NCBI GenBank assembly: GCA_021442665.1
Contig: JABUSQ010000158.1
Span: 1 to 36,802 of the forward strand
Origin: Oscillospiraceae bacterium
GTDB lineage: Bacteria; Bacillota; Clostridia; Oscillospirales; Oscillospiraceae
DNA: 36,802 nucleotides
Reading direction: 5' to 3'
Part shown: in pieces, positions 1,438 through 22,568 of the stretch
Layout of the letters: the number at the start of each line of letters is the position of its first letter
Position numbering within the stretch: position 1 is the stretch's first letter
Made by a program: the position numbers and the translations under genes
The notes under the pieces: model-generated
The model's database searches: none
Seen by the model: the letters and a program-made list of their open reading frames with translations, nothing else
What the model was told of the DNA's origin: nothing

Positions 1438-1466
1438 TTGACGGAAAAAACAATTCGTGTTAGATT
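1438..1466 (+). promoter_or_regulatory. candidate promoter of corrinoid methyltransferase operon (TTGACG-N17-TAGATT)
   Basis: -35 1438-1443, -10 1461-1466, upstream of the ATG at 1496. Confidence 0.5.
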
Positions 1467-1495
1467 ATTTACAGATAAAATTTGTGAGGTAAGCT

Positions 1496-2677
1496 ATGAA
1501 CGCAAAAGAATTAAAGGCGGGCAGGATAGCTCTGTTCAGAGACGCCGCCGCCTTCAGGCCAACGGAGAGAATACCCTATTTCTCCTCGGCGGTCACATGG
1601 AAGATATTCGACGCAGGACACACACTGGACGAGGCCATGACGGATTTCGGGATCATGGAGGAGTGTGTGCGTCATTTTCTGGATACTTATCCCGTGGACG
1701 GACTTCTGGATACGGGCATCCGCAACCAGTTTAATGTAACCGAGGCCTTCGGCGGGGGCGGATATTATTACTACACCCCCGACGCCGTGGGCATACACGA
1801 TCATGCTCACTGCACCGTGGACACGCTGGAGGATTACCTTAAGGACCCGGAGAGATACATATGGGAGACGGTGCTGCCGAAAAAATACGGCGAGGCCTGG
1901 GGACAGAAAACCAGGGAGATTTGGAAAAAGACCTTTAAGGAGTACATGGCGTACACGAAATTTGTCATTCACATGGCAAATGTCACGGGCAAGGAGTACG
2001 GTATACCCGGGCTGGCTCCCAATAACCCCATGAAAGGTGCCATCCAGTTCGGCATCGAGGAGCTGGAGGCAAATCTTCTGGGCATAAAGCAGCTCTCCAT
2101 CGCCATGCGCAGGAATGCCGACCTTATCGAGAGTTTCTGCCGCAGCTGGGATGCAGAGCACATAGACCCCGTCGTGGAAAAGGTGCTGAGCGGCAACGGC
2201 CCCGACAGGAAATACTGCTTTGACGCGTCCTTAATGATGCTGGCGCACAATATCACGGGACCGAAGCAGTTCGAGCGCTTCTACTGGCCGAGCCTGAAGA
2301 AGCTGCTGGACGCCTACGCCGAAAAGGGCATGAGCGTGCGTATCTTCGCCGAGGGCAGCATAGGAAGATATGCGGATTACTTCAAGGATTATCCCAAGGG
2401 CGTCATAACCCTGCATCTTGAGCAGGATGACCCCTTCGAGATCCGTGAAAAGCTCCCCAACATAGCAATCATGGGCGGCATGACCACGGATATGCTGGCA
2501 AATGCAAGCCCGGAGGACTGCGTCGCCTATGCGAAGCGGCTCTGCGACGAGCTGGGAAGAGAGGGCGGCTTCATCTTCAGCGAAAACAAGATGTTGTCCT
2601 ACCGCAACGACGCAAGGGCAGAAAATCTTGCGGCTGTGACGGAATTCGTGAGCGGCTACCGCCCTGAGAGGAGTTAA
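1496..2677 (+). CDS. uroporphyrinogen decarboxylase (URO-D)-like methyltransferase, probable methyltransferase I of a corrinoid system
   Basis: 393 aa; C-terminal URO-D/MtaA-like pattern (IAIMGGMTTDMLANASPEDCVAYAKRLCDELGREGGFIFSENK...AENLAAV); directly upstream of corrinoid protein and activator. Confidence 0.85.
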   Translation: MNAKELKAGRIALFRDAAAFRPTERIPYFSSAVTWKIFDAGHTLDEAMTDFGIMEECVRHFLDTYPVDGLLDTGIRNQFNVTEAFGGGGYYYYTPDAVGIHDHAHCTVDTLEDYLKDPERYIWETVLPKKYGEAWGQKTREIWKKTFKEYMAYTKFVIHMANVTGKEYGIPGLAPNNPMKGAIQFGIEELEANLLGIKQLSIAMRRNADLIESFCRSWDAEHIDPVVEKVLSGNGPDRKYCFDASLMMLAHNITGPKQFERFYWPSLKKLLDAYAEKGMSVRIFAEGSIGRYADYFKDYPKGVITLHLEQDDPFEIREKLPNIAIMGGMTTDMLANASPEDCVAYAKRLCDELGREGGFIFSENKMLSYRNDARAENLAAVTEFVSGYRPERS

Positions 2678-2680
2678 GCT

Positions 2681-2809
2681 ATGGAGAATAAATATACATC
2701 CTATCCCGAGGGATACAACAGACTGGTGAGGGACATCGTGCCCTTTTATATGCGCCCTGCAAAGAAGATGCTCATGCGCCTTCTGCTGACCATACTCACC
2801 GACGGCTGA
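2681..2809 (+). CDS. small ORF (42 aa) inside the corrinoid methyltransferase operon
   Basis: MENKYTSYPEGYNRLVRDIVPFYMRPAKKMLMRLLLTILTDG*; ATG 3 nt after the URO-D-like stop, preceded by gagaggag; followed at once by the SD of the corrinoid gene. Confidence 0.6.
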   Translation: MENKYTSYPEGYNRLVRDIVPFYMRPAKKMLMRLLLTILTDG

Positions 2810-2816
2810 GAGGAGA

Positions 2817-3452
2817 ATGAAAATGGATTATAACGAGATAAAGACCGCAATGCAGGAGCTGGACGAGGATACTCTGCTGGCGCTTATGAGGAAGGTCATT
2901 TCCGGCGGAGCCGACGCAATGGAGGCTGTGCGCGCCTGTCAGGAGGGTATGGAGGCCGTGGGTCAGCTCTTCGAGGACGGGGAATATTTCGTGGGTGACC
3001 TCATCTACGCCGGAGAGATACTCACCGACGCTCTTGAGATAATAAAGCCCGCTCTCTCCGAGGGCGAGGGAGGAAGTCTGGGCAGAATGCTTATCTGCAC
3101 CGTGCGTGACGATCTCCACGACATCGGCAAGAACATAGTGAAGAGTCTGCTGGAGGCGGGCGGCTTCGAGGTACTGGATCTGGGCGTTGACGCAGCCCCG
3201 GAGAAGATAGTTGAGACCGCAAAGAGCGAGGGTATCGGCATCATCGCCCTCAGCGGCGTTCTGACCCTTGCGCTGGAGTCCATGAAGGATACCGTCCGGG
3301 CATTCTGCGATGCGGGTCTGCGCGAGAACGTGAAGATAATCATAGGCGGAGCGCCGGTGAATGAGAATTCCGCGAAGACCGTGGGAGCCGACGCTTGGGC
3401 AAGCAGTCCCCAGAGGACGGTTTCCATATGCAGAGAGTGGGCAGGAGGCTGA
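2817..3452 (+). CDS. corrinoid (B12-binding) methyltransferase protein, MtaC/MtvC-like
   Basis: DDLHDIGKNIV (DxHxxG), SGVL and GGAP cobalamin-domain motifs, N-terminal helical cap. Actual start may be the second ATG at 2823. Confidence 0.92.
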   Translation: MKMDYNEIKTAMQELDEDTLLALMRKVISGGADAMEAVRACQEGMEAVGQLFEDGEYFVGDLIYAGEILTDALEIIKPALSEGEGGSLGRMLICTVRDDLHDIGKNIVKSLLEAGGFEVLDLGVDAAPEKIVETAKSEGIGIIALSGVLTLALESMKDTVRAFCDAGLRENVKIIIGGAPVNENSAKTVGADAWASSPQRTVSICREWAGG

Positions 3453-3453
3453 A

Positions 3454-4263
3454 ATGATACATTTACTTGACGGCTCCGCAGGCACAGCCCTGTGGGCTAT
3501 GGCAGAGGCTGCGGGAGTTAAGAAAAAATCCGTGTGGCTGTATAATATCGAGCAGCCCGAATTCGTCACCGAGCTTCACCGCCGCTATATCGAGGCGGGC
3601 AGCGAGCTGATACAGGCCAACACCTTCAGCGTAAACCGGTTTTCCGTGGAGCGGGAATCGGAGCTCAGCGCCGCCGAGGTGGTCACCGCCGCGGTTAAGC
3701 TGGCAAAGCAGGCAGCGGAGGGAACCGGGGTCAGGGTCTACGCCACCTTCGGACCTCTGCCCATACTCATGGAGCCCTACGGGAAGCTCAGCATTGCCGA
3801 GACCGAGGCGGCATACACGGAGCTTGCCTCCGCCGCCGCGGAAGCGGGCGCGGATATCATCGTGCTGGAGACCTTCATGGATCTGCGCATGATGGAGGTG
3901 GCTGCCAAAGCCGCAAAGAGCTTCGGCCTGCCCGTGTTCTGCTCCATGACCTTTGCCAAGCGTCACCGCACCATGATGGGCGACACCGTGAAGAAGATAG
4001 CTCAGTCTCTGGAGACCATAGGCGCAGACGCCGTGGGCATGAACTGCTCGGCAGGCCCCGTGGAGGCGCTGGAGATCATCCGTGAGTTTAAGGAGAATAC
4101 CGCTCTGCCCCTGTACTTCAAGCCCAACTCCGGCATGGGCGAAAGCTACGGCGCTGATCAGTTTGCCTCAGAGATAGCTCCCGCTCTGGAGTTTGTATCC
4201 TATGTGGGCGGCTGCTGCGGCTGTGACGAGGAATATATAAAGGAGATAAAAAAGCTCCTGTGA
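3454..4263 (+). CDS. homocysteine S-methyltransferase-family (HMT-domain) protein
   Basis: LDGSAGTAL..., IQANTFSVNR, MNCSAGP and C-terminal GGCCGC Cys cluster, as in zinc-binding HMT domains. Confidence 0.9.
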   Translation: MIHLLDGSAGTALWAMAEAAGVKKKSVWLYNIEQPEFVTELHRRYIEAGSELIQANTFSVNRFSVERESELSAAEVVTAAVKLAKQAAEGTGVRVYATFGPLPILMEPYGKLSIAETEAAYTELASAAAEAGADIIVLETFMDLRMMEVAAKAAKSFGLPVFCSMTFAKRHRTMMGDTVKKIAQSLETIGADAVGMNCSAGPVEALEIIREFKENTALPLYFKPNSGMGESYGADQFASEIAPALEFVSYVGGCCGCDEEYIKEIKKLL

Positions 4264-5750
4264 GTGTTTTTTCGGTTAAGGTGCACTGCGGAGGCGGGGA
4301 GCTTCTGCTGTGCGCCGGGGAAGATAAGAGCATATTGGAGCTTCTCACCGCCGCATCCGTCATCGTTGACGCACCCTGCGGAGGCAGAGGGACCTGCGGC
4401 AAATGCAGCGTGGAGCTCAGAGGAGCGGTGCGGAGCAGGGACAGCGGAGAGACGGTACAGGCGGAGGGCAGGCTTCACGCCTGCCGCTTTATCCCCGCAG
4501 GGGACTGCGAGCTATGGCTTGACACCGAAGGCGAGGCGAGGATAGTCCTGCCGGATGCCGTGAGGACAGACGGCGGAGGCGAGGGTCTGGGGCTTGCCGT
4601 GGATATAGGCACCACCACAGTGGCGGCGGCTCTGTACGACCTTGCCACCGGGGAATGCATCGCCGAAAAGAGCGAGCGCAATGCCCAGAGAAGCTTCGGC
4701 GCCGATGTCGTGAGCCGCATGGAGCATTGCAGAAGGGGAAGCTTTACGGAGCTTGCGGAGGCGACCCGGACACAGCTTGCGGCACTGTTTGAGGACAGAG
4801 AGGGCATACGCCGTGTGGCACTGGTGGGAAACACCGTGATGCAGCATCTGGCGTGGGGTCTTGACCCCTCGGACATGGCTGTCCCGCCCTTCAGACCCAA
4901 AAGCCTTTTTGGCTTCAGTGCAGGCTCGGAGCTGTGGCAGGACGCCGAGGTATATCTTGCACCCTGCGTATCCGCGTATGTGGGAGGAGACGTGCCTGCG
5001 GGCATGCTGGCCTGCGGCATGGACAGCGCAGAGGGCCTGTGGCTGTATGTGGATATCGGCACCAACGGAGAGATGGCTCTGGGCGATAAAAACGGCTATG
5101 TCACCTGCGCAACAGCGGCAGGGCCTGCCTTCGAGGGCGCTGAGATAGCCTGCGGAATGATCGCCGCCGAGGGAGCCGTGGACAGAGTATGGTGCGAGGG
5201 CACTGAGCTTTTTGCCCACGTAATCGGCGGGGGAGAGGCGAAGGGCATCTGCGGCAGCGGACTTATCGACGCTGCTGCCGCCATGCTGCGGCTGGGCGTG
5301 CTTGACCGCAGAGGACGGCTCCTTGATGAGGAAAAAGCACCCGTACAGCTGCGGCGCAGATTTATCCGGCATGATGGCGTGAGAGCCTTTGTCCTCCGGG
5401 ACGGGGTCTTCGTCACCGCTAAGGACATACGGAAGATACAGCTTGCCAAGGCAGCCATAAGAGGCGGCATAGAGACACTGCTTCAGGGGCGAGTACCCGA
5501 CGGTGTGGTCATCGCAGGGGGCTTCGGAAGCTATATCGACGTGAGAAACGCCGTGGAGATAGGTCTGCTGCCCCCCATACCCGTAAGCCTTGTCCGTCAG
5601 GCGGGAAACGCCGCAGCCAAGGGGGCGGCGATGCTTCTGAACGACGGCACTGCCGAAAGACTGAAGGCTCTGACGGAAAGCTGCAGCTACCTTGATCTTT
5701 CCTCTTCAAAGGAGTTTTCCGACAGCTATATTTCCTATCTGGACTTCTGA
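4260..5750 (+). CDS. corrinoid activation protein (RACE/RamA-type functional class; N-terminal 2Fe-2S ferredoxin plus ASKHA/DUF4445 domain)
   Basis: N-terminal CGGRGTCGKC; ASKHA-like VDIGTTTVAAALYD and VDIGTNGEMAL; GTG start overlaps the HMT stop (GTGA). Confidence 0.9.
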   Translation: MSVFSVKVHCGGGELLLCAGEDKSILELLTAASVIVDAPCGGRGTCGKCSVELRGAVRSRDSGETVQAEGRLHACRFIPAGDCELWLDTEGEARIVLPDAVRTDGGGEGLGLAVDIGTTTVAAALYDLATGECIAEKSERNAQRSFGADVVSRMEHCRRGSFTELAEATRTQLAALFEDREGIRRVALVGNTVMQHLAWGLDPSDMAVPPFRPKSLFGFSAGSELWQDAEVYLAPCVSAYVGGDVPAGMLACGMDSAEGLWLYVDIGTNGEMALGDKNGYVTCATAAGPAFEGAEIACGMIAAEGAVDRVWCEGTELFAHVIGGGEAKGICGSGLIDAAAAMLRLGVLDRRGRLLDEEKAPVQLRRRFIRHDGVRAFVLRDGVFVTAKDIRKIQLAKAAIRGGIETLLQGRVPDGVVIAGGFGSYIDVRNAVEIGLLPPIPVSLVRQAGNAAAKGAAMLLNDGTAERLKALTESCSYLDLSSSKEFSDSYISYLDF

Positions 5751-8191: not shown

Positions 8192-8220
8192 AATACCACC
8201 GGCATCGCCGGTGGTATTTT
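8192..8220 (+). terminator. terminator between transporter and first dehydrogenase
   Basis: aataccaccggc-at-cgccggtggtatttt. Confidence 0.7.
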
Positions 8221-8246
8221 GCAAAACTGAAAAACGGAGATATATT

Positions 8247-9197
8247 ATGAAAATAGCAATGATAGGCTCCGGCGCGGCGGGCAGTGTTTTCGCCGCTTAT
8301 CTCCGTAAGGGCGGCGCGGAGATGTACCTTGTTGACCGATACAAGGCCCACATGGACAAGATAGCCGCCGACGGACTCACCTTTGTCACACCCTCCGGCG
8401 AGGAGCTGCTCACGGGCTTCACAACCGCAGCCACCGCCGCCGAGATAGGCAAAATGGACATGGTCATCCTCATGGTGAAGGCAACGCAGACCGAGGATAT
8501 CATGCCCACGCTGGCCCCCTGCATGAGCGACAGCACCGTGGTGGTGTCCCTGCAGAACGGTCTCGGCAACGATGAGGTACTGCAGAAGTACGTTTCCGCT
8601 GACCGCATCCTCTACGGCTTCGGCACCATCGGCACGGAGCTTCCCGAACCCGGCAAATGCGTATCCAAGCCCGAGAGCGGCGTTATCATGCGCTTCGGTG
8701 CCGTTGAAAAGTGCGAGGCCTCCGAAAAGGCGGGCAAGGCTCTGGAAAAGCTCTTCAATGACGGCGGCTGCGAGACGGTATTCGAGGAGGACATTCGTCC
8801 CTTCGTCTGGAAAAAGGCAATCTCCAACAGCGGCTACAACACACTGAGCGCACTGCTGCGGCTGAAGGTGGGCTTCATCCTCGACAGCGACGAGGGCTGC
8901 GAGCTTATAAAGCGCATATGGTCGGAGGGCTGCGATGTGGCTCAGGCGGTAACTGGCGTTGACCTGTGGCCGGATATGGAGCTGGAGCTTCCCCGGCTGA
9001 AGGAGGGCTTTGCGGATTATTACCCCTCCATGGCTCAGGACGTGCTTATGCATCACCGCCAGACGGAGGTAAAGCTCCTCAACGGAGCCATAGCTGATTA
9101 CGGAAGACTCTACGGCGTGGACACCCCCGTCAACGACGCCGTGACCCTCATGGTGGGCGCAATTCAGGAAAATTACGAAAATCAGTACAAAAATTGA
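8247..9197 (+). CDS. ketopantoate reductase family (ApbA/PanE-like) dehydrogenase 1
   Basis: MKIAMIGSGAAGSVFAAYL (GxGxxG), VSLQNGLGND, WKKAISNSGYNTLSALL. Confidence 0.88.
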   Translation: MKIAMIGSGAAGSVFAAYLRKGGAEMYLVDRYKAHMDKIAADGLTFVTPSGEELLTGFTTAATAAEIGKMDMVILMVKATQTEDIMPTLAPCMSDSTVVVSLQNGLGNDEVLQKYVSADRILYGFGTIGTELPEPGKCVSKPESGVIMRFGAVEKCEASEKAGKALEKLFNDGGCETVFEEDIRPFVWKKAISNSGYNTLSALLRLKVGFILDSDEGCELIKRIWSEGCDVAQAVTGVDLWPDMELELPRLKEGFADYYPSMAQDVLMHHRQTEVKLLNGAIADYGRLYGVDTPVNDAVTLMVGAIQENYENQYKN

Positions 9198-9205
9198 AAA
9201 TAATG

Positions 9206-9234
9206 TTGCATTTGCAGCTGTTTTGATTTACAAT
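9206..9234 (+). promoter_or_regulatory. promoter for second dehydrogenase (TTGCAT-N17-TACAAT)
   Basis: -35 9206-9211, -10 9229-9234; RBS aaaggag near 9276. Confidence 0.65.
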
Positions 9235-9288
9235 AATTACATTAAGGTCAGTTAATTAATGACAATAATATTAAAAAGGAGAAAAATT

Positions 9289-10377
9289 ATGAAAATTGCA
9301 ATGTATGGCTCCGGTGCAGCCGGCAGCGTATTCGCCTGCTACCTGAAAAACGGCGGCGCAGACATGATCCTCATTGACCGCTATGAGGCACATATGAACA
9401 AGGTCAACGCCGAGGGCATGAAGTTCACCGTTCACGCAAAGCGTGAGGGCAGCAACGAGTACGACAAGATCGCAGCTCCCCTGGTGGCAAAGGGCTTCAC
9501 CGTGACCAAGTCCGAGGTTGACCCCACCTATGACGACATCGAGACCGTTCTCCCCGGCTTCCGTGCCTACACCAGCTCCGTTGCCGCTGCAGAGGCAGAG
9601 GGCAAGGTCGACGTCATCATCTACATGACCAAGGCAACCCAGCTTGAGGCAGCAATTCAGGACTCCCTCCCCGTAGTAGGCGAGGACACCATCGCAGTTT
9701 CCCTCATCAACGGTCTGGGCAACGACGACAACCTGTTCAAGGTATTCCCCAAGAACCGCTGCATCATCGGCTCCGGCGTTCTGGGCACCAACCTGCCCGA
9801 GCCCGCACACTGCATCTCCACTCCTGCCGGCGGCGTTCAGATGAACTTCGGCGGCGCAGAGAAGGACGAGCTGAACAACAAGGTCTGCGCATATCTGCTC
9901 AAGTGCTTCAAGGACGGCGGCTGTGACGCATACTGGCGTGACGGCGATCCCGGCGAGGAGAGCAACATCTACAAGTTCATCTGGAAAAAGGTCTGCGTAA
10001 ATGCAACCGTCAACACCGTCTGCGCCGTTCTGCGTCTGAAGATCGGCGAGGTCGAGAACGACGAGTGGGGCCAGAAGCTGTTCCACGGCGTCATCAATGA
10101 GACCTGCGCAGTCGCTACCGCCAAGGGTGTCCCCATGTCCGCTGAGGAGTTCATCGCTCACGACCACCACGACATCGTAACCAACATCGCAGACTACTAT
10201 CCCTCCATGTGCCAGGATATGCTCTTCTTCCAGCGCCAGACCGAGATCGACGTGCTCAACGGCAAGATCGCCGAGTACGGCAAGGAGCTGGGCATCCCCT
10301 GCCCCACCTGCGATATCCTCACCAAGGTCGTTCACGCAATCCAGAACAACTACGACAAGCAGTACTTCAAGAAGTAA
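9289..10377 (+). CDS. ketopantoate reductase family dehydrogenase 2 (extended paralog)
   Basis: MKIAMYGSGAAGSVFACYLKNGGADMILIDRYEAHM, clearly paralogous to the 8247 gene. Confidence 0.88.
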   Translation: MKIAMYGSGAAGSVFACYLKNGGADMILIDRYEAHMNKVNAEGMKFTVHAKREGSNEYDKIAAPLVAKGFTVTKSEVDPTYDDIETVLPGFRAYTSSVAAAEAEGKVDVIIYMTKATQLEAAIQDSLPVVGEDTIAVSLINGLGNDDNLFKVFPKNRCIIGSGVLGTNLPEPAHCISTPAGGVQMNFGGAEKDELNNKVCAYLLKCFKDGGCDAYWRDGDPGEESNIYKFIWKKVCVNATVNTVCAVLRLKIGEVENDEWGQKLFHGVINETCAVATAKGVPMSAEEFIAHDHHDIVTNIADYYPSMCQDMLFFQRQTEIDVLNGKIAEYGKELGIPCPTCDILTKVVHAIQNNYDKQYFKK

Positions 10378-12903: not shown

Positions 12904-13428
12904 TTATTCGGCGTTTGCCGCCACGGCATATTCCACGGCGGTGACGGTGCCGTCGCTGCCCTCCTCAATCATGAGAAGGGTGGAGCCCGTGAGATACTTA
13001 TACACGGAGCCGGCATGAGTGTAGCCGTCGCCCATGAGGGAGAGGGCCTCGCTGACAGCCATGCCGATCTTCACGCCCTGGGGATTTGCCACGGTGTCGT
13101 CTGCGAGGGTGATGCCGGTGATGCGCATGGCTCCGTCAATGTCGTTTGCCATGACCTCAAAGCCGTCGTAGTAGTAGAAATAGTCCTTGCCCTGATAGGC
13201 GCAGCTCTCGGACTCAAAGGTACCCTGCGGCTCACCGAGGGCGTCCAGCACCTCGTCGGCAAAGTCCATGATGCCGAAGACAACGTCGCCGGAGGCGAAG
13301 CTCAGCTCGCCGTAATCGGGGGCGTAGGGCTCGCTGCTGCTGTCGGGGGCGGGGTCTTCGTTCTCGCCGCAGGCGCAGAGCGCAAACAGCATGAGGGCGG
13401 CGAGCATAAGTGAAATAAGCTTTTTCAT
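12904..13428 (-). CDS. lipoprotein of unknown function
   Basis: MKKLISLMLAALMLFALCACGENED lipobox; start overlaps the upstream gene's stop (ATGA). Confidence 0.8.
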   Translation of the reverse strand: MKKLISLMLAALMLFALCACGENEDPAPDSSSEPYAPDYGELSFASGDVVFGIMDFADEVLDALGEPQGTFESESCAYQGKDYFYYYDGFEVMANDIDGAMRITGITLADDTVANPQGVKIGMAVSEALSLMGDGYTHAGSVYKYLTGSTLLMIEEGSDGTVTAVEYAVAANAE

Positions 13429-14510
13429 TTTTCTTCTCCTAATGTCCATGACTTTAAATAGCCGTATTCTTTCAGCTCCGCCTGCTGCGCATCGTACAGT
13501 GCGTGGTAGGCTTCGCTCTTTTCCGCCCAGACAGCGGCAATTTCCGTATCGTTTCTTCGGTCGGGAACACCGTACTCCTCCGTGAGCAGCTCACCGAACC
13601 AGAGCCCCAGCTTCTCCGCACCGTAGACATTCAGGTGCAGACCCGCATCATAGGTGTCACGGCTCCAGTCAATGCCTATCTCCTCGGTTAGAGGCAGCAT
13701 GTTGATGTAATCAAGCCCGTACTTCTCCGCATAGCCGCTTATCTGCCTGTCCCACTCCTCATACCAGTAGGGCCATTGGCTGGGTGACTTGATAAGCAGC
13801 AGCCTTGCGCCGTTTTCCTCGCAGAGCAGGCGGAGCCGGTCGAGATACTCCCAGCAGGTGTCACCGATGGCGTAATCGTCCAGCACCGGGGGACTGGGCA
13901 GCTTGCTCATGGGCTTTATGTCCGAGCGCATGAGATAGCCCGACACGGTAACGGGGTCACGGCGGAACATATAGCGGAGATCCTCGGAGCTAAGCTCGCT
14001 CCACCTGTCGTGATAGCGGAGCAGAGGAATAAAATAGCTGATAAGCGCCTCCTCCTCCGTAGCGGAGGCACGGATTGCGGCAAGCTTGTGGGCGGACAGC
14101 GGCATTCCGTCGAGACTCATGCGGTTGTACGCCTCGCTCTGGGGCTCGGAATACTTCATGGCCTGCACGTTGTAGACCACCACCTTGGGGCTGTCTCTGT
14201 CGAAGGCCTCCTCCAGCAGATAGTAGGACTGCCATATAAGCTGCTGTGCCGAGCCGCGGATATAGCTTGTCACGCCGTACTCCTCCCACATGGTGACCGG
14301 GGAGAAGTTCTCATATACCTCGCAGTCGCCGATGAATATCACATCGTGGGGACTGGTCTCATTATAGTACTCCGCGGTCATGGCACCCTCCAGCACGCCG
14401 GACATATACTTGGGCTGCAGGAGCTTTCCCAGAAGCCAGACGGCAAGCACTGTGAATATCACCGTACAGAGCAGGGCGATAATATGTACTTTTGTCTTGG
14501 TTTTTGTCAT
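13425..14510 (-). CDS. SGNH-like (DltD/AlgJ-like) protein of dlt-like operon
   Basis: N-terminal TM; VIFIGDCEVYENFSP (block I-like) and DAGLHLNVYGAEK (DxxH block V). Confidence 0.75.
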   Translation of the reverse strand: MTKTKTKVHIIALLCTVIFTVLAVWLLGKLLQPKYMSGVLEGAMTAEYYNETSPHDVIFIGDCEVYENFSPVTMWEEYGVTSYIRGSAQQLIWQSYYLLEEAFDRDSPKVVVYNVQAMKYSEPQSEAYNRMSLDGMPLSAHKLAAIRASATEEEALISYFIPLLRYHDRWSELSSEDLRYMFRRDPVTVSGYLMRSDIKPMSKLPSPPVLDDYAIGDTCWEYLDRLRLLCEENGARLLLIKSPSQWPYWYEEWDRQISGYAEKYGLDYINMLPLTEEIGIDWSRDTYDAGLHLNVYGAEKLGLWFGELLTEEYGVPDRRNDTEIAAVWAEKSEAYHALYDAQQAELKEYGYLKSWTLGEEK

Positions 14511-14511
14511 A

Positions 14512-16092
14512 TCAGAACTGATTATAGATAAACTGAGCGGAATCATAGCCCACACCGTAGGCGCCGAAGACTAAGACAGCCAGCACCAGCAGGGTGAACA
14601 GCACATAGGGCAGAAGCTTTTTCTGCCAGATAAGCTCACGAACCTCGCCGTGCTTTTCCTGAATACAGCTCACGGTGAACATCATGACAACGCCGATGCC
14701 GGCAATGATATAATCCCCTGCGCTGAGACCGATATTCAGCAGGTCGCCGAAGGCACTGCCCCAGTTAAAATCCGTGAACACGGAGAAGAAGGCCTTGAAG
14801 GACACTGCCACGTCACGGTAGCAGTCGAGTATCCTGAAGGAGCTTACCAGCAGGAAGGTGCGCAGAGTCTCAAACACCCGGTAGCCGAAGCTGCTGACTA
14901 GCCGCTCATGCTTTGTGCGGAAGCGGTGGGACAGGGGCTTGAATTCCTCCGCCGCAAGGATGAATACGGCATTGAGAAGTCCCCAGACCACAAAATTCCA
15001 CGCCGCACCGTGCCACAGACCCGTAAGGAACCAGGTTATGATGGTTGACACGTACACGGAGAGCTTCCTGCCGAAGCTGTCGGAGATTTTCTTCCGTGCG
15101 GCCTTGGAGAGCTTCAGCAGCCAGGGAGCCACGGACAGGGGATAGAAGATGTAGTCCTTGAACCAGGTTCCCATGGAGATGTGCCAGCGCCGCCAGTATT
15201 CCGCAATATTGCGGGAGAAGAAGGGCCGGATGAAGTTTTCCTGCACCCTGATGCCCAGCACCTGAGCGATGCCGATGGTGATATCGATGCCACCGGTGAA
15301 GTCCGCGTATAGCTCGGCGGCGTAGAACATGGCGCCGAAGAAGACATAGGCTCCGGTGTAGAGGGTGGGATCGCCGCAGAGGGTGGTCACCGCTGCAAGA
15401 AGACGGTCTGCGATGACGAGCTTCTTGAAATAACCCCAGATGATGCGCTGAAGACCGAAGGATATCTGCTTGAAATCCGGCTCATGCTCTGCGAAAAGGG
15501 TACGGCTCAAATCTCCGAAGCGGGAAATGGGGCCCTGAATGAGGAGAGGGAAAAAGGAGGTGAACAGGGCGACCCGCAGGATGTTCTTCTCAGCCTCCGT
15601 CTTCTCCCAGTACACGTCGATGATGTAGCTCACGGTCTGGAAGGTGTAGAAGGATATGCCCAGCGGCAGCAGCCAGTCAACACCCGCAATATTTGCGCCG
15701 AAGAGGGAATTCACGTTGTGTATGACGAAATTCGTGTACTTCAGCGCCGCAAGGATACCAAGATCCAGCACCAGCGCAAGGATGAATATACGCTTTCTGT
15801 ACTTTTCTCCCTGCTTTTTGACCGCTTTGCGCTCCTCTCTTGAGAGCTCCTTTCCCGGGGGAGAGGAGAGAAAGGACTTCTGCTTTGCAAGGGAGGAGGA
15901 CATGAGGTTGGTGGATGCCCAGGCGACGGTCACGGTTGCCGCCATGAACACAAGTCCCTGCCAGCCTGCGCAGTAATAGAACAGAGCGTCGGCTATGAGC
16001 AGCAGCAGCCACTGGAAGCGGCGGGGAATGAGATAGTACAGCGCAAAAAGGACTATCAGAAAGGCTATGAAGCCGTAGGACGTAAACAGCAC
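14512..16092 (-). CDS. MBOAT family O-acyltransferase (DltB/AlgI-like)
   Basis: Multi-TM, YWRRWHISMGTWFKDYIFYPLS and FLTGLWHGAAWNFVVWG with conserved His. Confidence 0.93.
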   Translation of the reverse strand: MLFTSYGFIAFLIVLFALYYLIPRRFQWLLLLIADALFYYCAGWQGLVFMAATVTVAWASTNLMSSSLAKQKSFLSSPPGKELSREERKAVKKQGEKYRKRIFILALVLDLGILAALKYTNFVIHNVNSLFGANIAGVDWLLPLGISFYTFQTVSYIIDVYWEKTEAEKNILRVALFTSFFPLLIQGPISRFGDLSRTLFAEHEPDFKQISFGLQRIIWGYFKKLVIADRLLAAVTTLCGDPTLYTGAYVFFGAMFYAAELYADFTGGIDITIGIAQVLGIRVQENFIRPFFSRNIAEYWRRWHISMGTWFKDYIFYPLSVAPWLLKLSKAARKKISDSFGRKLSVYVSTIITWFLTGLWHGAAWNFVVWGLLNAVFILAAEEFKPLSHRFRTKHERLVSSFGYRVFETLRTFLLVSSFRILDCYRDVAVSFKAFFSVFTDFNWGSAFGDLLNIGLSAGDYIIAGIGVVMMFTVSCIQEKHGEVRELIWQKKLLPYVLFTLLVLAVLVFGAYGVGYDSAQFIYNQF

Positions 16093-16095
16093 GGC

Positions 16096-16323
16096 TTACT
16101 CGTCCATGAGGCGGAGCACCATGCTGTACATAGCCTCGGCGGAATTGAAGTTCTCGGGGATGATCTCTCTGGCGGGGATGGTGATGTCGTAGGCGTCGGA
16201 CAGCTCGGCGATGATGCTGACGATGTCCAGAGATTCAAGATAACCGTCGTCGATGAGGGTGTCGCAGCTTTCAAAGTCCACGTCGGGGGCGATATCCTCC
16301 AGAATTTCAAGCAGTTCGTTCAT
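16096..16323 (-). CDS. acyl/peptidyl carrier protein (DltC-like)
   Basis: 75 aa; DDGYLESLDIVSIIAELSDAYDITIPAREI with predicted 4'-phosphopantetheine Ser. Confidence 0.88.
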   Translation of the reverse strand: MNELLEILEDIAPDVDFESCDTLIDDGYLESLDIVSIIAELSDAYDITIPAREIIPENFNSAEAMYSMVLRLMDE

Positions 16324-16325
16324 AA

Positions 16326-17822
16326 TTAATTCTCCATTAAAGCTTTTCTGTCAATTTTTCCGTTGGGAAGCAGGGGAAGTCTGTCCATGCGAAGGAATTT
16401 TGCGGGTATCATATGGCGGGGAAGCTCGCTGCGCATATAGCCGCGAAGCTCCTTTTCATCCGCGGAGCCCATGTAATACAGCCGGAGTCTGCCCTTTTCC
16501 CTGTCAAACAGGCAGCAGGCGCTTTCAACGCCCTCCGCCATGCAGGCGCAGGCCTCGATCTCGCCGAGCTCAATGCGGTGACCCATGTTTTTTATCTGGC
16601 TGTCCTTCCGGGAGACGAAGACAAGCTCGCCTCTTTCGTTGAGCCTGCCCAGATCTCCGGTGCGGTAGATAAGCTCCGGGTAGTGGGGGTTCAGGGGGTT
16701 CTGCACGAAAACGGCGGCGGTACGCTGAGGGTCGTCATAGTAGCCCAGAGTTACGGCGGTGCCGCGGATGCATATCTCACCGGTCTCACCCTCCTCCGCA
16801 GGGCTGTTATCCTCCCGCAGAAGCATGAAATCCGTGTTGTCGAAGGGCTGACCCACGGGGATGGGCTCGCCGTCCTCAAAGGCTCTGTCCACCTCGTAAT
16901 AGAAGCTCATGCCCGTGCACTCCGTGGGGCCGTAGAGGTTAATAAACCTTGCGCCGGGGCAGACTGCCTGCCATGCACGGAGCTGCTTCACGGGAAACAC
17001 CTCGCTGCCGAAGCAGACCGTGCGGAGGTATTCCGGTCTGCCCTCCTCGAAGGCTCCCAGACCCGAAACAAGGGTGAGAGCGGAGGCGACCCAGCAGACG
17101 GTGTTTATTTTATGCTCGTTTAAGAAGCTCAGCACATTAAGCGGAGAGGTGAACAGGCTCTGCTGCATGAGAAATACCGTGGAGCCGCATTTTACGGCAG
17201 AGAGTATTTCCTTCATGCAGGCGTCAACATACAGAGGCACCTGCATGGCAAAAACGCTGTCCGGGGACGCTCCGATGACGGGGCAGAGGGCGGAGGCGTA
17301 ATCGATAAGCGAGCGGTGGCAGGCGGTTACGCCCTTGGGCTCTCCCGTGCTGCCGGAGGTAAAGACGATGTAAACGGGGTCGATGTCCACGCATTTTCTG
17401 CGCACGGCGGACAGCTCGGGGCCTGCCTCGCAGGAGAAAAGCTCCTCTGCGGGGAGTATCCTGTCGCCGTAGCCCAGCTCTGCGCATTTTTCCGCACTGC
17501 TCTCGTCGCAGATGACGGTCCGGGGCTCGAGCTTTGCGATGATTCTGCGGATACGGTGCATGGGAAGACCCATTTCCAGAGGCACATAGCAGCAGCCTGC
17601 GTATATGACGGAGAAGAAGGCGGCAACCGTGGCGGGGCATTTTTTCATGAACACCACCACGCATTCGCCTCTGCGGGCGCCCCGCCGCAGAAGCTGTGTG
17701 CCGCCCCGCCTCGACAGGGAGAGAAGCTCCGAAAAGCTCAGAGAGCTTTCACCGTCGGAAAAAGCGGTCTTATGGGGATATTCAGAGGCGGTCGCCTCCA
17801 GAAATTCAAGAATGTTTTTCAT
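16326..17822 (-). CDS. stand-alone amino-acid adenylation enzyme (AMP-binding, DltA/NRPS A-domain-like)
   Basis: VFTSGSTGEPKGV, NLYGPTECT, YRTGDLGRLNERGELVFVSRKDSQIKNMGHRIELGEIE, PNGKIDRK motifs. Confidence 0.93.
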   Translation of the reverse strand: MKNILEFLEATASEYPHKTAFSDGESSLSFSELLSLSRRGGTQLLRRGARRGECVVVFMKKCPATVAAFFSVIYAGCCYVPLEMGLPMHRIRRIIAKLEPRTVICDESSAEKCAELGYGDRILPAEELFSCEAGPELSAVRRKCVDIDPVYIVFTSGSTGEPKGVTACHRSLIDYASALCPVIGASPDSVFAMQVPLYVDACMKEILSAVKCGSTVFLMQQSLFTSPLNVLSFLNEHKINTVCWVASALTLVSGLGAFEEGRPEYLRTVCFGSEVFPVKQLRAWQAVCPGARFINLYGPTECTGMSFYYEVDRAFEDGEPIPVGQPFDNTDFMLLREDNSPAEEGETGEICIRGTAVTLGYYDDPQRTAAVFVQNPLNPHYPELIYRTGDLGRLNERGELVFVSRKDSQIKNMGHRIELGEIEACACMAEGVESACCLFDREKGRLRLYYMGSADEKELRGYMRSELPRHMIPAKFLRMDRLPLLPNGKIDRKALMEN

Positions 17823-17826
17823 GATA

Positions 17827-19890
17827 TCAGGGCATTACAAAGGGAGTGGTGGCGACCTCGGGGTAGAGGCTCTTGTCAAACACCCAGTACTGGGGGCTGA
17901 GGGGAGCGACGTCGGAGTTCATCTTCATGAAGCACTTGTAGTGCTGGGGACCCACGTTGCAGGTGTCGAAGTGATACCAGCCCGTGCCCAGATTGACAAG
18001 GCACCAGAAATGCTGGGTCTTGCCGTTCATGCGCTCCACGCTCAGCACCTGACAGTCTATCTCCTGAAGAAGTATATAGGTGGCGGCGTAGAAGGTGTAG
18101 CAGTCGCCCACACCCTTGGTGAGCCCCCTGTACGCCTCGCCGCAGAGGTCCTGCTTGTTGGAGTCGCCCCAGTAGGTGATATTGTCATAGCAGTAGTTGA
18201 ACACAGCCAGAGCCTGCTCTGCGGGGGTCATATCCGGGGTAAATATCTTGTCGGTGACCGCCTTGACCGCCTGCTTGAGCTGCTCCTCGGTGACTGTCCG
18301 CTCAATGAAGGTGAATTTTACGGTGACGGAGGAGGAATTGCCCTCGTGGTCGGTGGCGGTGTAGGTCACGTCGTAGGTGCCGGCCTTTTTGGAGTCCACC
18401 TTGGACTTGTCAACGGTGAGCTCGGGCTCGGGATCGGTGTTATCCTCGGCAAAGACCTCCTTGAAGTAGCTGACGGCATCGCCCACATAGAAATTACGGT
18501 CGATGGCGGCGTAGATAACGGGGGCGATGCTGTCGGGAGCCACCACCGCCTTTGCCTTGACGGTGGAGGTATTTCCGCAACGGTCGGTGAGGATTATCTC
18601 AACCTCCTGCGTGCCCTCGGTGTTCCAGTCGGGCTCCTGAGCGAATTTCGCCTTGACGGCGCTCATATCCGTGATGTTGGTGACGAATTTGATGGGCTCG
18701 CAGTAATAGCCGGTGCTGCAGGGACATTCGATGCCCTCGGCGGTGGGAGCGGTGGTGTCCTTCACCACCACGGCTACCAGCACCTGCTGACCGCTCCTGA
18801 TGAAATACACCGGGTGCGCGCCCAGCTCTGTCAGAGAGAACTCCGCATCCGCAGCCTCGGGGTCGAGGATGCAGCCGGCGAACTCCGTAGGAAGCAGCTT
18901 CCTCAGCTCCGCCTCGTTTGTATTTCTGTTTGCCGCCTCTATCTCGATGATGTAGTCCGCAACGATGAGCTTTGCCTCGAAGTCCACGCTGTTGCCGCAG
19001 GCATCCTCGGCGTTCAGGGTGCAGGTAAAGATGCCGCATTTGTCGGTTACGGGGACCTCGGTGAGAGTGCTTGTGACCTCGCTGACATCCTCAAAGCCCA
19101 GAGTGAAGGCGGAGGCCTCCGGCTCTTTGCCCTTCAGAACCGCGGCGGTGACGGCATCGGGAACGGGGGCGGTGGTGTCCACGATCTCCACGACGGTGGT
19201 ATAGGTCTGACCGTCAAAGGCAATCTGAACCTCGTATTCGCCTACCTCATCCCATTTGACCTCCTCGTAGCCTCCGGCAAACTCGGCGTTCTCACGCTCC
19301 ACCACCATAAAGTCCTTCAGAGCGGGTCTGTCGCCGCCTGCCTCGACCTTCAGACGGTCGACGGCGCCGAGGATAATGACCTTCACGGTGATGACGTCAC
19401 TGTTTCCGTGTATGTCGGCGAGAGCGATCTCGGCGTTATAGGTGCCTGCCTTGCCGAATTCGGGCGTTACCTTCCACTCGACGGTGTAGTCGCTGGCCTC
19501 TTTTATATTGGTGAGAGCTTCCTCAGGCCCGATGGTGTCGTCAATGGTTATTTTGACGTCACCGTTATCGGCGGCGGGAGCCTTTGTGTCACTGACGATG
19601 AGCAGCACCTTGCGCCTTGCGCCGTCCTTTTCAACGGTGATGATATATTTGCCCTCCTCCGTGAGGCTTATGTCATTGTCACCCACATAGGAGGCGGAGC
19701 CTTCACCGCGGACGAAGACGGAAATGTCGGGCAGTCCCTCGCCCAGCTCGCCGTGCGCCCATAGATTAACGCCCCGGTAAACACCGAACACGGTGACTGC
19801 CGCCGTCGCTGCCAGCACCAGCAGCACGGTAAGCAATACGACAGGCCATCTGCGTGATTTTTTCTTTTCTGCAGACTTATTTCTACTCAA
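17827..19890 (-). CDS. membrane-anchored protein with Ig-like repeats and C-terminal transglutaminase-like domain
   Basis: Repeated D(T/S)xAP Ig-like modules; GVGDCYTFYAATYILL (Cys), QHFWCLVNLGTGWYHFDTC (His/Asp). Start proposed at TTG 19890 after GGGGG; ORF track extends to 19965. Confidence 0.85.
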   Translation of the reverse strand: MSRNKSAEKKKSRRWPVVLLTVLLVLAATAAVTVFGVYRGVNLWAHGELGEGLPDISVFVRGEGSASYVGDNDISLTEEGKYIITVEKDGARRKVLLIVSDTKAPAADNGDVKITIDDTIGPEEALTNIKEASDYTVEWKVTPEFGKAGTYNAEIALADIHGNSDVITVKVIILGAVDRLKVEAGGDRPALKDFMVVERENAEFAGGYEEVKWDEVGEYEVQIAFDGQTYTTVVEIVDTTAPVPDAVTAAVLKGKEPEASAFTLGFEDVSEVTSTLTEVPVTDKCGIFTCTLNAEDACGNSVDFEAKLIVADYIIEIEAANRNTNEAELRKLLPTEFAGCILDPEAADAEFSLTELGAHPVYFIRSGQQVLVAVVVKDTTAPTAEGIECPCSTGYYCEPIKFVTNITDMSAVKAKFAQEPDWNTEGTQEVEIILTDRCGNTSTVKAKAVVAPDSIAPVIYAAIDRNFYVGDAVSYFKEVFAEDNTDPEPELTVDKSKVDSKKAGTYDVTYTATDHEGNSSSVTVKFTFIERTVTEEQLKQAVKAVTDKIFTPDMTPAEQALAVFNYCYDNITYWGDSNKQDLCGEAYRGLTKGVGDCYTFYAATYILLQEIDCQVLSVERMNGKTQHFWCLVNLGTGWYHFDTCNVGPQHYKCFMKMNSDVAPLSPQYWVFDKSLYPEVATTPFVMP

Positions 19891-20003
19891 AGCAATAACC
19901 CCCAAAGTTATTTTAAGCATATTTCGACAAATACATATAATATCACAGCAGTGATGTATAAACAATGATTTTTTCTTAAATTTACAATGAAATATGCTTG
20001 GTG

Positions 20004-20032
20004 TTGAAAAGCTTTCCCCGCCGTGGTATTAT
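20004..20032 (+). promoter_or_regulatory. promoter (TTGAAA-N17-TATTAT)
   Basis: -35 20004-20009, -10 20027-20032, upstream of the racemase-like gene. Confidence 0.55.
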
Positions 20033-20056
20033 TAATAAGCAACAACTGATATCAGG

Positions 20057-20767
20057 GTGATGACGATGATTAATTCCCGGCGGGTAATCGGAATTATCGG
20101 AGGCATGGGCCCCATGGCCACCGCCGATATATTCCGGAAAATCATAGAAAAAACCGATGCCGAGCGGGACTGCGAGCATCTGCATATCCTCATAGACAAC
20201 AACACCGATATTCCCGACCGCACCGCCTGCATAATCGAGGGCTCGGATGCGCCTGCGCTGCTTATGTCGGAGTCTGCGAAGCGTCTTGAGAGCATGGGAG
20301 CCGACCTGCTGATAATTCCCTGCAACACGGCGCATTTCTTCCACGGCAGGGTCTCGGAGTGCTGCGGCATACCCGTGCTGCATATGCCCCGTGAGACGGC
20401 AGAGGCGGTGCGGAGTCTGGGCATAAAATGCGCAGGGCTTCTCGCCACGGAGGGAACTCTGCTCAGCGGGATTTACGACGGTATTTTTGAGGAGTACGGC
20501 ATAGAGCTAAGAAGGCCCTCGGAGCAGGCGCGGAAAATGCTCATGCATATCATATACAACGAGGTCAAGGCGGGAAGACCCGCAGACACCGAAGTGCTGG
20601 AGGAGGAGCTTTGCCGCATGGAGGCAGAGGGCTGTGAGGCGTTTATCTTAGCCTGCACGGAACTTCCCATAGCCTTTGCCGGGAACACTCTCCACCGCTT
20701 TATAGACCCCACATCCGTCCTCGCAGAGGCTGCGATAACAGCCGCCGGAGGCAAGCTGAAGAGGTAA
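20057..20767 (+). CDS. aspartate/glutamate racemase family protein
   Basis: IGIIGGMGPMATADIFRKI; two catalytic-Cys contexts IPCNTAHFF and LACTELP. True start may be ATG 20060 or 20066. Confidence 0.9.
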   Translation: MMTMINSRRVIGIIGGMGPMATADIFRKIIEKTDAERDCEHLHILIDNNTDIPDRTACIIEGSDAPALLMSESAKRLESMGADLLIIPCNTAHFFHGRVSECCGIPVLHMPRETAEAVRSLGIKCAGLLATEGTLLSGIYDGIFEEYGIELRRPSEQARKMLMHIIYNEVKAGRPADTEVLEEELCRMEAEGCEAFILACTELPIAFAGNTLHRFIDPTSVLAEAAITAAGGKLKR

Positions 20768-20771
20768 CACA

Positions 20772-21725
20772 ATGAAAAGACTGACCGCATTTCTGCTTTG
20801 CATATTAATGCTGCTCTCCCTGTGCGCCTGCACGGAGGAGGAGCCGGAACCCACGGAGCCTGCGGAGACCTATGCCCCCGTGAGCTTTGAAAACCACGGC
20901 AGGACCGTAACCGTCGGCCGGGCGCCCCGGAAAGCGGTCACCGCGGGGCCCCACTGCACGGAGATATTCTGCGCGCTGGGGCTTGCGGATCTTGTGGTGG
21001 GCAAATGTATGTCAAACCACAGTCAGGGAGCGCTTGAGGAGTTGGCGGACGACTATTATACCATCCCCGACCTTGCCGTGGGCTACCCCGACTACGAGGA
21101 TATTATCTCCAGCGGCTGCGATTTCCTCCTTGCCACGGACTGGATATTCGGCGAAGACCTGACCATAAAGTCCCTTGAAAAAGCCGGTATCACCGTTTTT
21201 GTCCTCAGCACGGACAGCATCGGCAGTCTCTGTGCCGATCTGCGCACCGTGGCGAAGATATTCGAGGTGAGCGGCAGAGCCGAGGAGATAATAGCCCTGC
21301 AGGCTCCCGTTATCTCCCAGATAATCGAAAAACTGCCCGAGCAGGAGCCTCTTAGGGTGCTGGTGCTGGACAGCTTTGTCGGTGAAAAGGTCTATGTCAC
21401 CGGCAGCTACGGCTATGAAAACGAGCTTATCTCCGCGGCCGGAGGCGTGAATATCTTTGCCGGGCTGGAGAAGAAATGGGACGCCGTCACCCCGGAGGAG
21501 ATCATGGAGGCCCGGCCGGACTTTATAATCATCCACGACTATGAGGGCTCCTCCGCCGATGAAAAGCATGCGGCTCTCAATGAGCATGCGCTGCTGGGTC
21601 AGCTCCCCTGCGTGTGGGAGGGACGTGTTCTGCACCTGCCTCTGGAAAACAGCTTTCCCGGCGTCCGCTGCGCCATGACGGTGGAGCTGCTGGCGGCGGA
21701 ATTCTTCCCGGAAATGTTTGAATGA
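20772..21725 (+). CDS. ABC transporter solute-binding lipoprotein (Fe-siderophore/cobalamin type, PF01497-like)
   Basis: Lipobox LLSLCACTEE; RTVTVGRAPRKAVTAGPHCTEIFCALGLADLVVG; GGVNIFAGLEKKWDAVTPEEIMEARPDFIIIHDY. Confidence 0.85.
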   Translation: MKRLTAFLLCILMLLSLCACTEEEPEPTEPAETYAPVSFENHGRTVTVGRAPRKAVTAGPHCTEIFCALGLADLVVGKCMSNHSQGALEELADDYYTIPDLAVGYPDYEDIISSGCDFLLATDWIFGEDLTIKSLEKAGITVFVLSTDSIGSLCADLRTVAKIFEVSGRAEEIIALQAPVISQIIEKLPEQEPLRVLVLDSFVGEKVYVTGSYGYENELISAAGGVNIFAGLEKKWDAVTPEEIMEARPDFIIIHDYEGSSADEKHAALNEHALLGQLPCVWEGRVLHLPLENSFPGVRCAMTVELLAAEFFPEMFE

Positions 21726-21731
21726 CGCGCC

Positions 21732-22568
21732 ATGTTCAGTAAGGTCTACGTTGAGATAACCAACATCTGCAATCTGAGCTGCTCCTTCTGCCACGGCACG
21801 AAAAGAGCACCCCGGCGGATGAGTGCAGGGGAGTTTCGCTGCGTACTGGAGAAGCTTCGGGGTCATACGAGGTATGTGTATTTTCACCTCATGGGCGAGC
21901 CTCTGAGCCATCCCGAGCTGCCGGAGCTTTTAAGCATCGCCGCGGAAACGGACATGAGCTGCTGTATAACCACCAACGGCTTTCTGCTGGATAAGTGCGC
22001 CGGGACTCTGCTGAGCGCGGAGCGGCTGTACAAGCTCAGTGTGTCTCTCCACAGCTTCGAGGCAAACAGAACGGACCTGACCCTGGAGGAATATCTGGAC
22101 CGTGTTCTGGACGTGGCTCTGCCTCTGTCCCGGAAGGGCTGCATCGTGGCCCTGAGGCTCTGGAACGAGGGCGGAGAAAACGAGCTGAACGGCAGGATAA
22201 AGGAGCAGCTCCGCAGCCGCCTCGGCGGTGACTGGCAGGAGAACCGCAGCGGCAGCCTCCGCCTCGCCGACAGGCTCTATCTTGAAAACGCCGCTAAATT
22301 CGAATGGCCCGACATGGACGCCCCGGAGTGCGGCGTGCAGTTCTGCCGTGGTCTGAGAGATCAGATAGCCGTCCTCTGCGACGGCACCGTGGTGCCCTGC
22401 TGTCTGGATGCCGAGGGGGACCTTGCGCTGGGAAATATCTTCGGGCAGAGCCTTGAGGAGATACTTGAAACGGACAGAGCCGCAGCCTTTTACGAGGGCT
22501 TTTCAAACCGCAGACCCTCGGAGGAGCTGTGCCGTAAATGCGGCTATGCGCTGAGATTCAACAGGTAA
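21732..22568 (+). CDS. radical SAM protein with SPASM-like C-terminal Cys cluster
   Basis: CNLSCSFC (CxxxCxxC); C-terminal CGVQFC, VVPCCLDAEGDLALGNIF, CRKCGY. Confidence 0.9.
   Translation: MFSKVYVEITNICNLSCSFCHGTKRAPRRMSAGEFRCVLEKLRGHTRYVYFHLMGEPLSHPELPELLSIAAETDMSCCITTNGFLLDKCAGTLLSAERLYKLSVSLHSFEANRTDLTLEEYLDRVLDVALPLSRKGCIVALRLWNEGGENELNGRIKEQLRSRLGGDWQENRSGSLRLADRLYLENAAKFEWPDMDAPECGVQFCRGLRDQIAVLCDGTVVPCCLDAEGDLALGNIFGQSLEEILETDRAAAFYEGFSNRRPSEELCRKCGYALRFNR

Follow-up and report, generated by a model that had tools for sequence, protein, structure and literature searches.

The textbook amino acid placed on Gram-positive envelopes by the MBOAT/SGNH route is D-alanine, and we know of no acidic amino acid that reaches these envelopes in the same way; a search of the open-access literature, most subscription journals being outside its scope, for D-Asp or aminoacyl teichoic modification with cassettes like the one described below returned nothing relevant. 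In the Dlt route, the acyl group passes from a carrier-protein thioester through DltB to the Tyr in the FxYxxF motif of DltX, then to the Ser of DltD and finally to the polymer (PMC12148441). In PatA, the FxYxxF motif is fused to the MBOAT and the donor is acetyl-CoA (PMC12148441). The operon analyzed here resembles PatA/PatB and the AlgI/AlgX-type O-acetyltransferases in its longer MBOAT, its fused C-terminal FxYxxF and its SGNH partner (PMC12148441); these systems, however, use acetyl-CoA and work without an adenylation enzyme or carrier protein.

The window, that is, the whole stretch of 36,802 nucleotides of Oscillospiraceae DNA that was analyzed, carries six intact minus-strand ORFs at 12904-19890 in the order TG, ADEN, ACP, MBOAT, SGNH protein and LPP, with a racemase gene (RAC) diverging from TG:

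17827-19890, minus strand: TG, membrane-anchored or secreted, with Ig-like domains plus a transglutaminase-like domain at the C-terminus (Pfam, triad alignment)
16326-17822, minus strand: ADEN, an adenylation enzyme (TIGR01733, code, tree clade)
16096-16323, minus strand: ACP, a carrier protein (PP-binding, invariant Ser)
14512-16092, minus strand: MBOAT protein with the C-terminal acyl-shuttle motif FIYNQF (Pfam MBOAT, motif)
13425-14510, minus strand: predicted SGNH-fold membrane-anchored acyltransferase (conserved Cys, AlphaFold/Foldseek)
12904-13428, minus strand: LPP, a small lipoprotein that matches no known family (homologues in clade loci)
20057-20767, plus strand: RAC, an aspartate-racemase-family enzyme, divergent neighbor of TG (TIGR00035, 1jfl match)
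19891-20056, no strand: TG-RAC divergent intergenic region with promoter-like sites (a consensus scan only, which is not evidence of function)

With the refined starts (TTG at 19890 for TG; ATG at 14510, 1 nt past the MBOAT stop, for the SGNH gene; ATG at 13428 for LPP), the gaps from TG to LPP are 4, 2, 3, 1 and -4 nt, the last being an ATGA overlap with the SGNH gene, and co-transcription is therefore likely. The six-gene minus-strand operon with 1-4 nt gaps or ATGA overlap described in the initial annotation thus stands; not noted there were RAC, the acyl-shuttle motif fused to the MBOAT and the Cys in the nucleophile position of the SGNH protein. Pfam matches above cut-off are Transglut_core, Ig-like, AMP-binding, PP-binding and MBOAT. 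On the plus strand, 20057-22568 holds a tight divergent operon of the racemase, a periplasmic-binding-type lipoprotein and a radical SAM/SPASM protein.

Relatives were sought in 201 genomes of the same family, whose neighborhoods were fetched, and in an additional scan of named genomes; the compared genomes are mutually related and several are fragmentary MAGs. This neighborhood survey, which had been proposed in the initial annotation, recovered the same cassette order in 18 further loci, hence 19 with the window, among which adenylation-enzyme identity goes down to about 44%. Recurrence of the order across the 19 loci rules out a chance juxtaposition of the six genes. Their adenylation enzymes form one clade (support 100/100), apart from other MBOAT-linked adenylation enzymes, near-canonical DltA and NRPS domains, in a tree where long branches lead to the DltA and to some of the NRPS rows. 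A lack of transglutaminase co-conservation had been set beforehand as a refutation of the initial reading; TG is found within the cassette in all 18 loci whose contig permits checking, and 16 LPP homologues occur in clade loci. The named clade members are MAGs of Oscillospiraceae, Clostridiales and Clostridia, several of them from rumen or colon.

The Dlt-like envelope acylation architecture originally proposed is well supported by these sequences: like DltXABCD, the operon has an adenylation enzyme, a carrier, an MBOAT with the catalytic His and an SGNH protein, with a thioester-Tyr-SGNH route to be expected. Its components, however, all fall below the Dlt family cut-offs (ADEN against DltA TIGR01734, 232.7 bits, cut-off 559.85; MBOAT against DltB TIGR04091, 149.3 bits, cut-off 375; ACP against DltC NF003464, 28.9 bits, cut-off 68), the SGNH protein has no NCBIfam match to the DltD sequence family and only fold likeness to 3bma, and the substrate code differs. 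Moreover, the shuttle Tyr is fused to the MBOAT and not carried by a separate DltX, the SGNH protein has Cys where DltD has Ser, and TG, the lipoprotein and the racemase are additions. Family cut-offs and code together rule out a canonical Dlt identity. Elsewhere in the genome, no match over the DltA-model cut-off and no canonical Dlt system were found, and the only other MBOAT adjoins an AlgX/DHHW-type protein. This second MBOAT (locus L073, contig C100 of the same genome) is AlgI-like, has an FxYxxF end of its own (FLYFRF) and also adjoins a polysaccharide deacetylase with S-layer domains.

The claim that ADEN is closer to NRPS A domains holds only insofar as ADEN scores 329 bits against the NRPS-type model TIGR01733, above the cut-off of 317; in the tree, with its long DltA and NRPS branches, it is part of a family of MBOAT-linked enzymes distinct from DltA and NRPS domains alike. 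The A10 motif, earlier taken as a sign of NRPS kinship, is not diagnostic, since GrsA also has NGKIDRK; the alignment of VDACMKE with FDASVWE was reproduced, Asp included. Read by alignment to the GrsA sequence, the numbering of which agrees at D235 and K517, the ten-residue specificity code of ADEN is DAKCCGLGMK (D200, K204); the clade code is DAKC(A/C/G)(G/A)(L/F)G(M/I/V)K, in which the Lys at GrsA position 239 is fixed. The near-canonical DltA in L176 reads DLLILCLVAK and differs from ADEN at seven of the ten positions, among them 239, where ADEN has Lys for Leu, and 301, where it has Gly for Cys, which supports the non-alanine substrate suggested before. The surfactin synthetase module-1 code DAKDLGVV is predicted to specify Glu/Asp (PMC10548584), and Glu and Gln are recognized by the code DAQDLGVVDK (PMC12283262). 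ADEN has D235, A236, K239 and G301 of the code of NRPS Glu adenylation domains of the SrfA-A module 1 type, from which it differs in being free-standing, without a condensation domain, and in forming a separate clade. Counting against an acidic reading, its code positions 322-331 (L, GM) are unlike those of the Glu (V, VD) and Asp (DLTKVGHI) codes. Judged by code rules that derive from NRPSs and predict with uncertainty outside them, the field of substrates for ADEN can be reduced to acidic amino acids, probably in the D form.

Further along the predicted route, ACP scores 21.7 bits against Pfam PP-binding (cut-off 20.8), with its phosphopantetheine site at S31, a Ser that is invariant in the homologue alignment. 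The MBOAT protein (54.5 bits against Pfam MBOAT) has H361, the WHG His conserved among its homologues, and its extreme C-terminus reads FIYNQF (Y523), which agrees with FxYxxF; FIYNxF recurs in 16/16 clade members. Set against the mechanisms of PMC12148441, the operon therefore unites carrier loading of the Dlt type with a fused shuttle as in PatA. Lipase_GDSL_2 remained below threshold for the SGNH protein in Pfam, and a profile of the SGNH protein gave no meaningful match to PDB sequences, so that fold comparison was used instead: the AlphaFold model (pLDDT 82) is matched by Foldseek to SGNH hydrolases, PatB and DltD 3bma, and at the level of this modeled fold the SGNH assignment is confirmed. 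The operon thus unites the general marks of an MBOAT-SGNH acyltransferase, namely the MBOAT His, FxYxxF and an SGNH-fold partner, here with a Cys nucleophile. The nucleophile position is Cys in 17/17 clade members, block I reading GDC, whereas most sister systems have GDS, GAS or GSS. In the window, this Cys is C63 (C78 in the longer ORF) and the Asp and His lie in DAGLH; two clade members have Asn in place of the block V Asp. No other conserved Ser lies near the nucleophile in the clade, the nearest, in NFSP, being missing in L077, and a thioester intermediate is therefore predicted.

RAC passes TIGR00035 (219.9 bits, cut-off 93.1) and finds its best PDB match in PhAspR, the aspartate racemase of P. 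horikoshii (1jfl, E 4e-56). The two Cys and the equivalents of R48 and K164, which we take to be the catalytic Cys pair and functional residues of PhAspR, are kept in RAC and conserved in all 30 aligned homologues; what sets RAC apart from PhAspR is its linkage to an acylation operon. An aspartate-racemase-family gene accompanies the cassette, inside it or adjacent to it, in 10/19 loci as against 0/32 sister loci (p 7e-6), and a strong racemase is present in 14/14 searched cassette genomes as against 62/187 without the cassette (p 5e-7), although both p values flatter the association because the genomes are related. Eight relatives have the racemase homologue inside the operon, and four positions occur across the loci: between TG and ADEN, after LPP, before TG, and upstream and divergent. 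The operon-linked racemases belong to several lineages, and their tree needs at least four gains or losses of operon linkage, which together with the variable position suggests repeated origin or renewal of the association. Two observations count against an acidic D-amino acid system served by this racemase. In 9/19 loci no racemase is placed within or next to the cassette (it is elsewhere in the genome for the six of these that come from searched genomes, the other three being named loci), and in the window RAC heads its own divergent operon with two unrelated genes. In the congener L035, those two downstream genes are present without the racemase, which is located elsewhere in that genome.

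Sister MBOAT-linked cassettes of the same bacterial family share the adenylation enzyme, carrier, MBOAT and often the SGNH protein, many with an FxYxxF-like end, but they have other codes, a GNAT or PLP decarboxylase in place of racemase and TG, and a Ser in most of those where an SGNH protein was found. A GNAT gene lies between adenylation enzyme and carrier in seven sister loci (L048, L049, L050, L058, L059, L061, L062), with codes DxKxxGLVDK, close to the NRPS Glu code, or DAVMMGLVCK. Eight others (L053, L055, L056, L057, L080, L082, L083 and L060, the last with the decarboxylase gene beyond that of the carrier) have a LysA-like PLP decarboxylase by the adenylation enzyme and mostly the code DVKxxSLCNK; these possibly export a decarboxylated aminoacyl group. 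In each clade a particular pocket seems to go together with a particular tailoring enzyme, and this favors reading the racemase likewise. Such cassettes suggest that gut Oscillospiraceae modify their envelopes with a broader range of amino acids, most of it still little explored. L060 also has one MBOAT beside three tandem SGNH genes (1439-4810). In loci L064-L069, a short DltB-like MBOAT that lacks the fused shuttle motif is accompanied by one or two adenylation enzymes and by a large upstream protein, which in L065 contains FG-GAP repeats.

With moderate confidence, we read the operon as a Dlt-like machine for trans-envelope aminoacylation whose substrate is an acidic D-amino acid, D-Asp most likely and D-Glu second. 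We infer the substrate, the chemistry, the acceptor and the roles of TG and the lipoprotein from what can be read in the sequences, namely gene order, conservation, catalytic residues, shuttle motif, the Ser-to-Cys change and the racemase association. The aspartate-type racemase would produce the D-amino acid, which ADEN would activate with ATP and load onto the carrier protein. The MBOAT would then transfer the acyl group through the membrane to the Tyr in the FIYNQF shuttle at its C-terminus, and the SGNH protein would take it up on Cys, as a thioester, rather than on the usual Ser and hand it to an extracytoplasmic acceptor, perhaps a teichoic-type polymer, a glycan or a protein. TG and the lipoprotein may contribute to this process, at the acceptor or next to it. 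The cassette would thereby predict an acidic envelope amino acid and join carrier loading and a fused acyl-shuttle MBOAT in one operon.

A component set equal to that of Dlt is also what would be expected of a diverged but orthodox D-alanylation system, in which drifted sequences would still yield the usual D-Ala ester of teichoic acid. The genome encodes two LtaS-like sulfatase-family proteins, which make a teichoic-type acceptor polymer possible, and no other Dlt-like system; yet the failed DltA, DltB and DltC cut-offs, the missing DltD match, a code unlike that of the L176 DltA and the association of an aspartate-type racemase with the cassette make this explanation improbable. A small non-ribosomal assembly with an exported product, rather than an envelope modification, would account for the NRPS-type score of ADEN, but the operon has no condensation or thioesterase gene and the combination of MBOAT, SGNH protein and shuttle motif is the hallmark of systems that acylate the envelope (PMC12148441), which leaves very little room for it.

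It is unlikely, though to be taken seriously, that the same machine handles an L-acidic amino acid or D-glutamate while the racemase serves another use, such as D-Asp for peptidoglycan cross-bridges. K239 agrees with Glu, strong homologues of the racemase occur widely (in 76/201 genomes) and often stand alone, and D-Glu is already supplied by a separate MurI present in the genome. The same MurI, on the other hand, could supply D-Glu without an extra racemase, which leads us to prefer D-Asp, and the racemase linkage is repeated, position-independent and confined to this clade. As for D-cysteate, or a different acidic amino acid bearing a sulfonate or some other modification, seven operon-linked racemases were scored against the NCBI cysteate racemase (CuyB) model with its cut-off of 190 bits. 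Four pass (window 217.7, L041 235.8, L042 224.5 and L076 194.8 bits), but the in-operon racemases of L043, L044 and L045 do not, and CuyB and aspartate racemases are closely related; we regard such an acyl group as highly improbable.

If the operon does export an acidic D-amino acid, the SGNH Cys thioester might pass it to an amine, giving an amide and not an ester, or to an acceptor that TG cross-links via the side-chain carboxyl. We offer this as a rather unlikely extension, which, if true, would amount to an extracellular, non-ribosomal pathway of envelope cross-linking. TG begins with a hydrophobic helix and scores 30.6 bits for Transglut_core and 30.5 bits for Bact_surface_Ig-like (Pfam); its triad is C597, H627 and D642 (numbered from the TTG at 19890), the Cys, and likewise the His and Asp, being invariant in 21 homologues. 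LPP has a conserved Cys in SCAxxG; no match was found in Pfam or NCBIfam, and its fold search returned weak likeness to YfeY/YjgB with no match below E 0.001.

Elsewhere on the plus strand of the window, 1496-5750 encodes a corrinoid methyltransferase set (URO-D-type methyltransferase, B12-binding protein, S-methyltransferase and RACo-type activator), and 8211-10377 holds a tandem pair of reductase-like genes, of which one, the first, is assigned by Pfam as a homologue of ketopantoate reductase (PanE/ApbA) and the second looks alike by eye.
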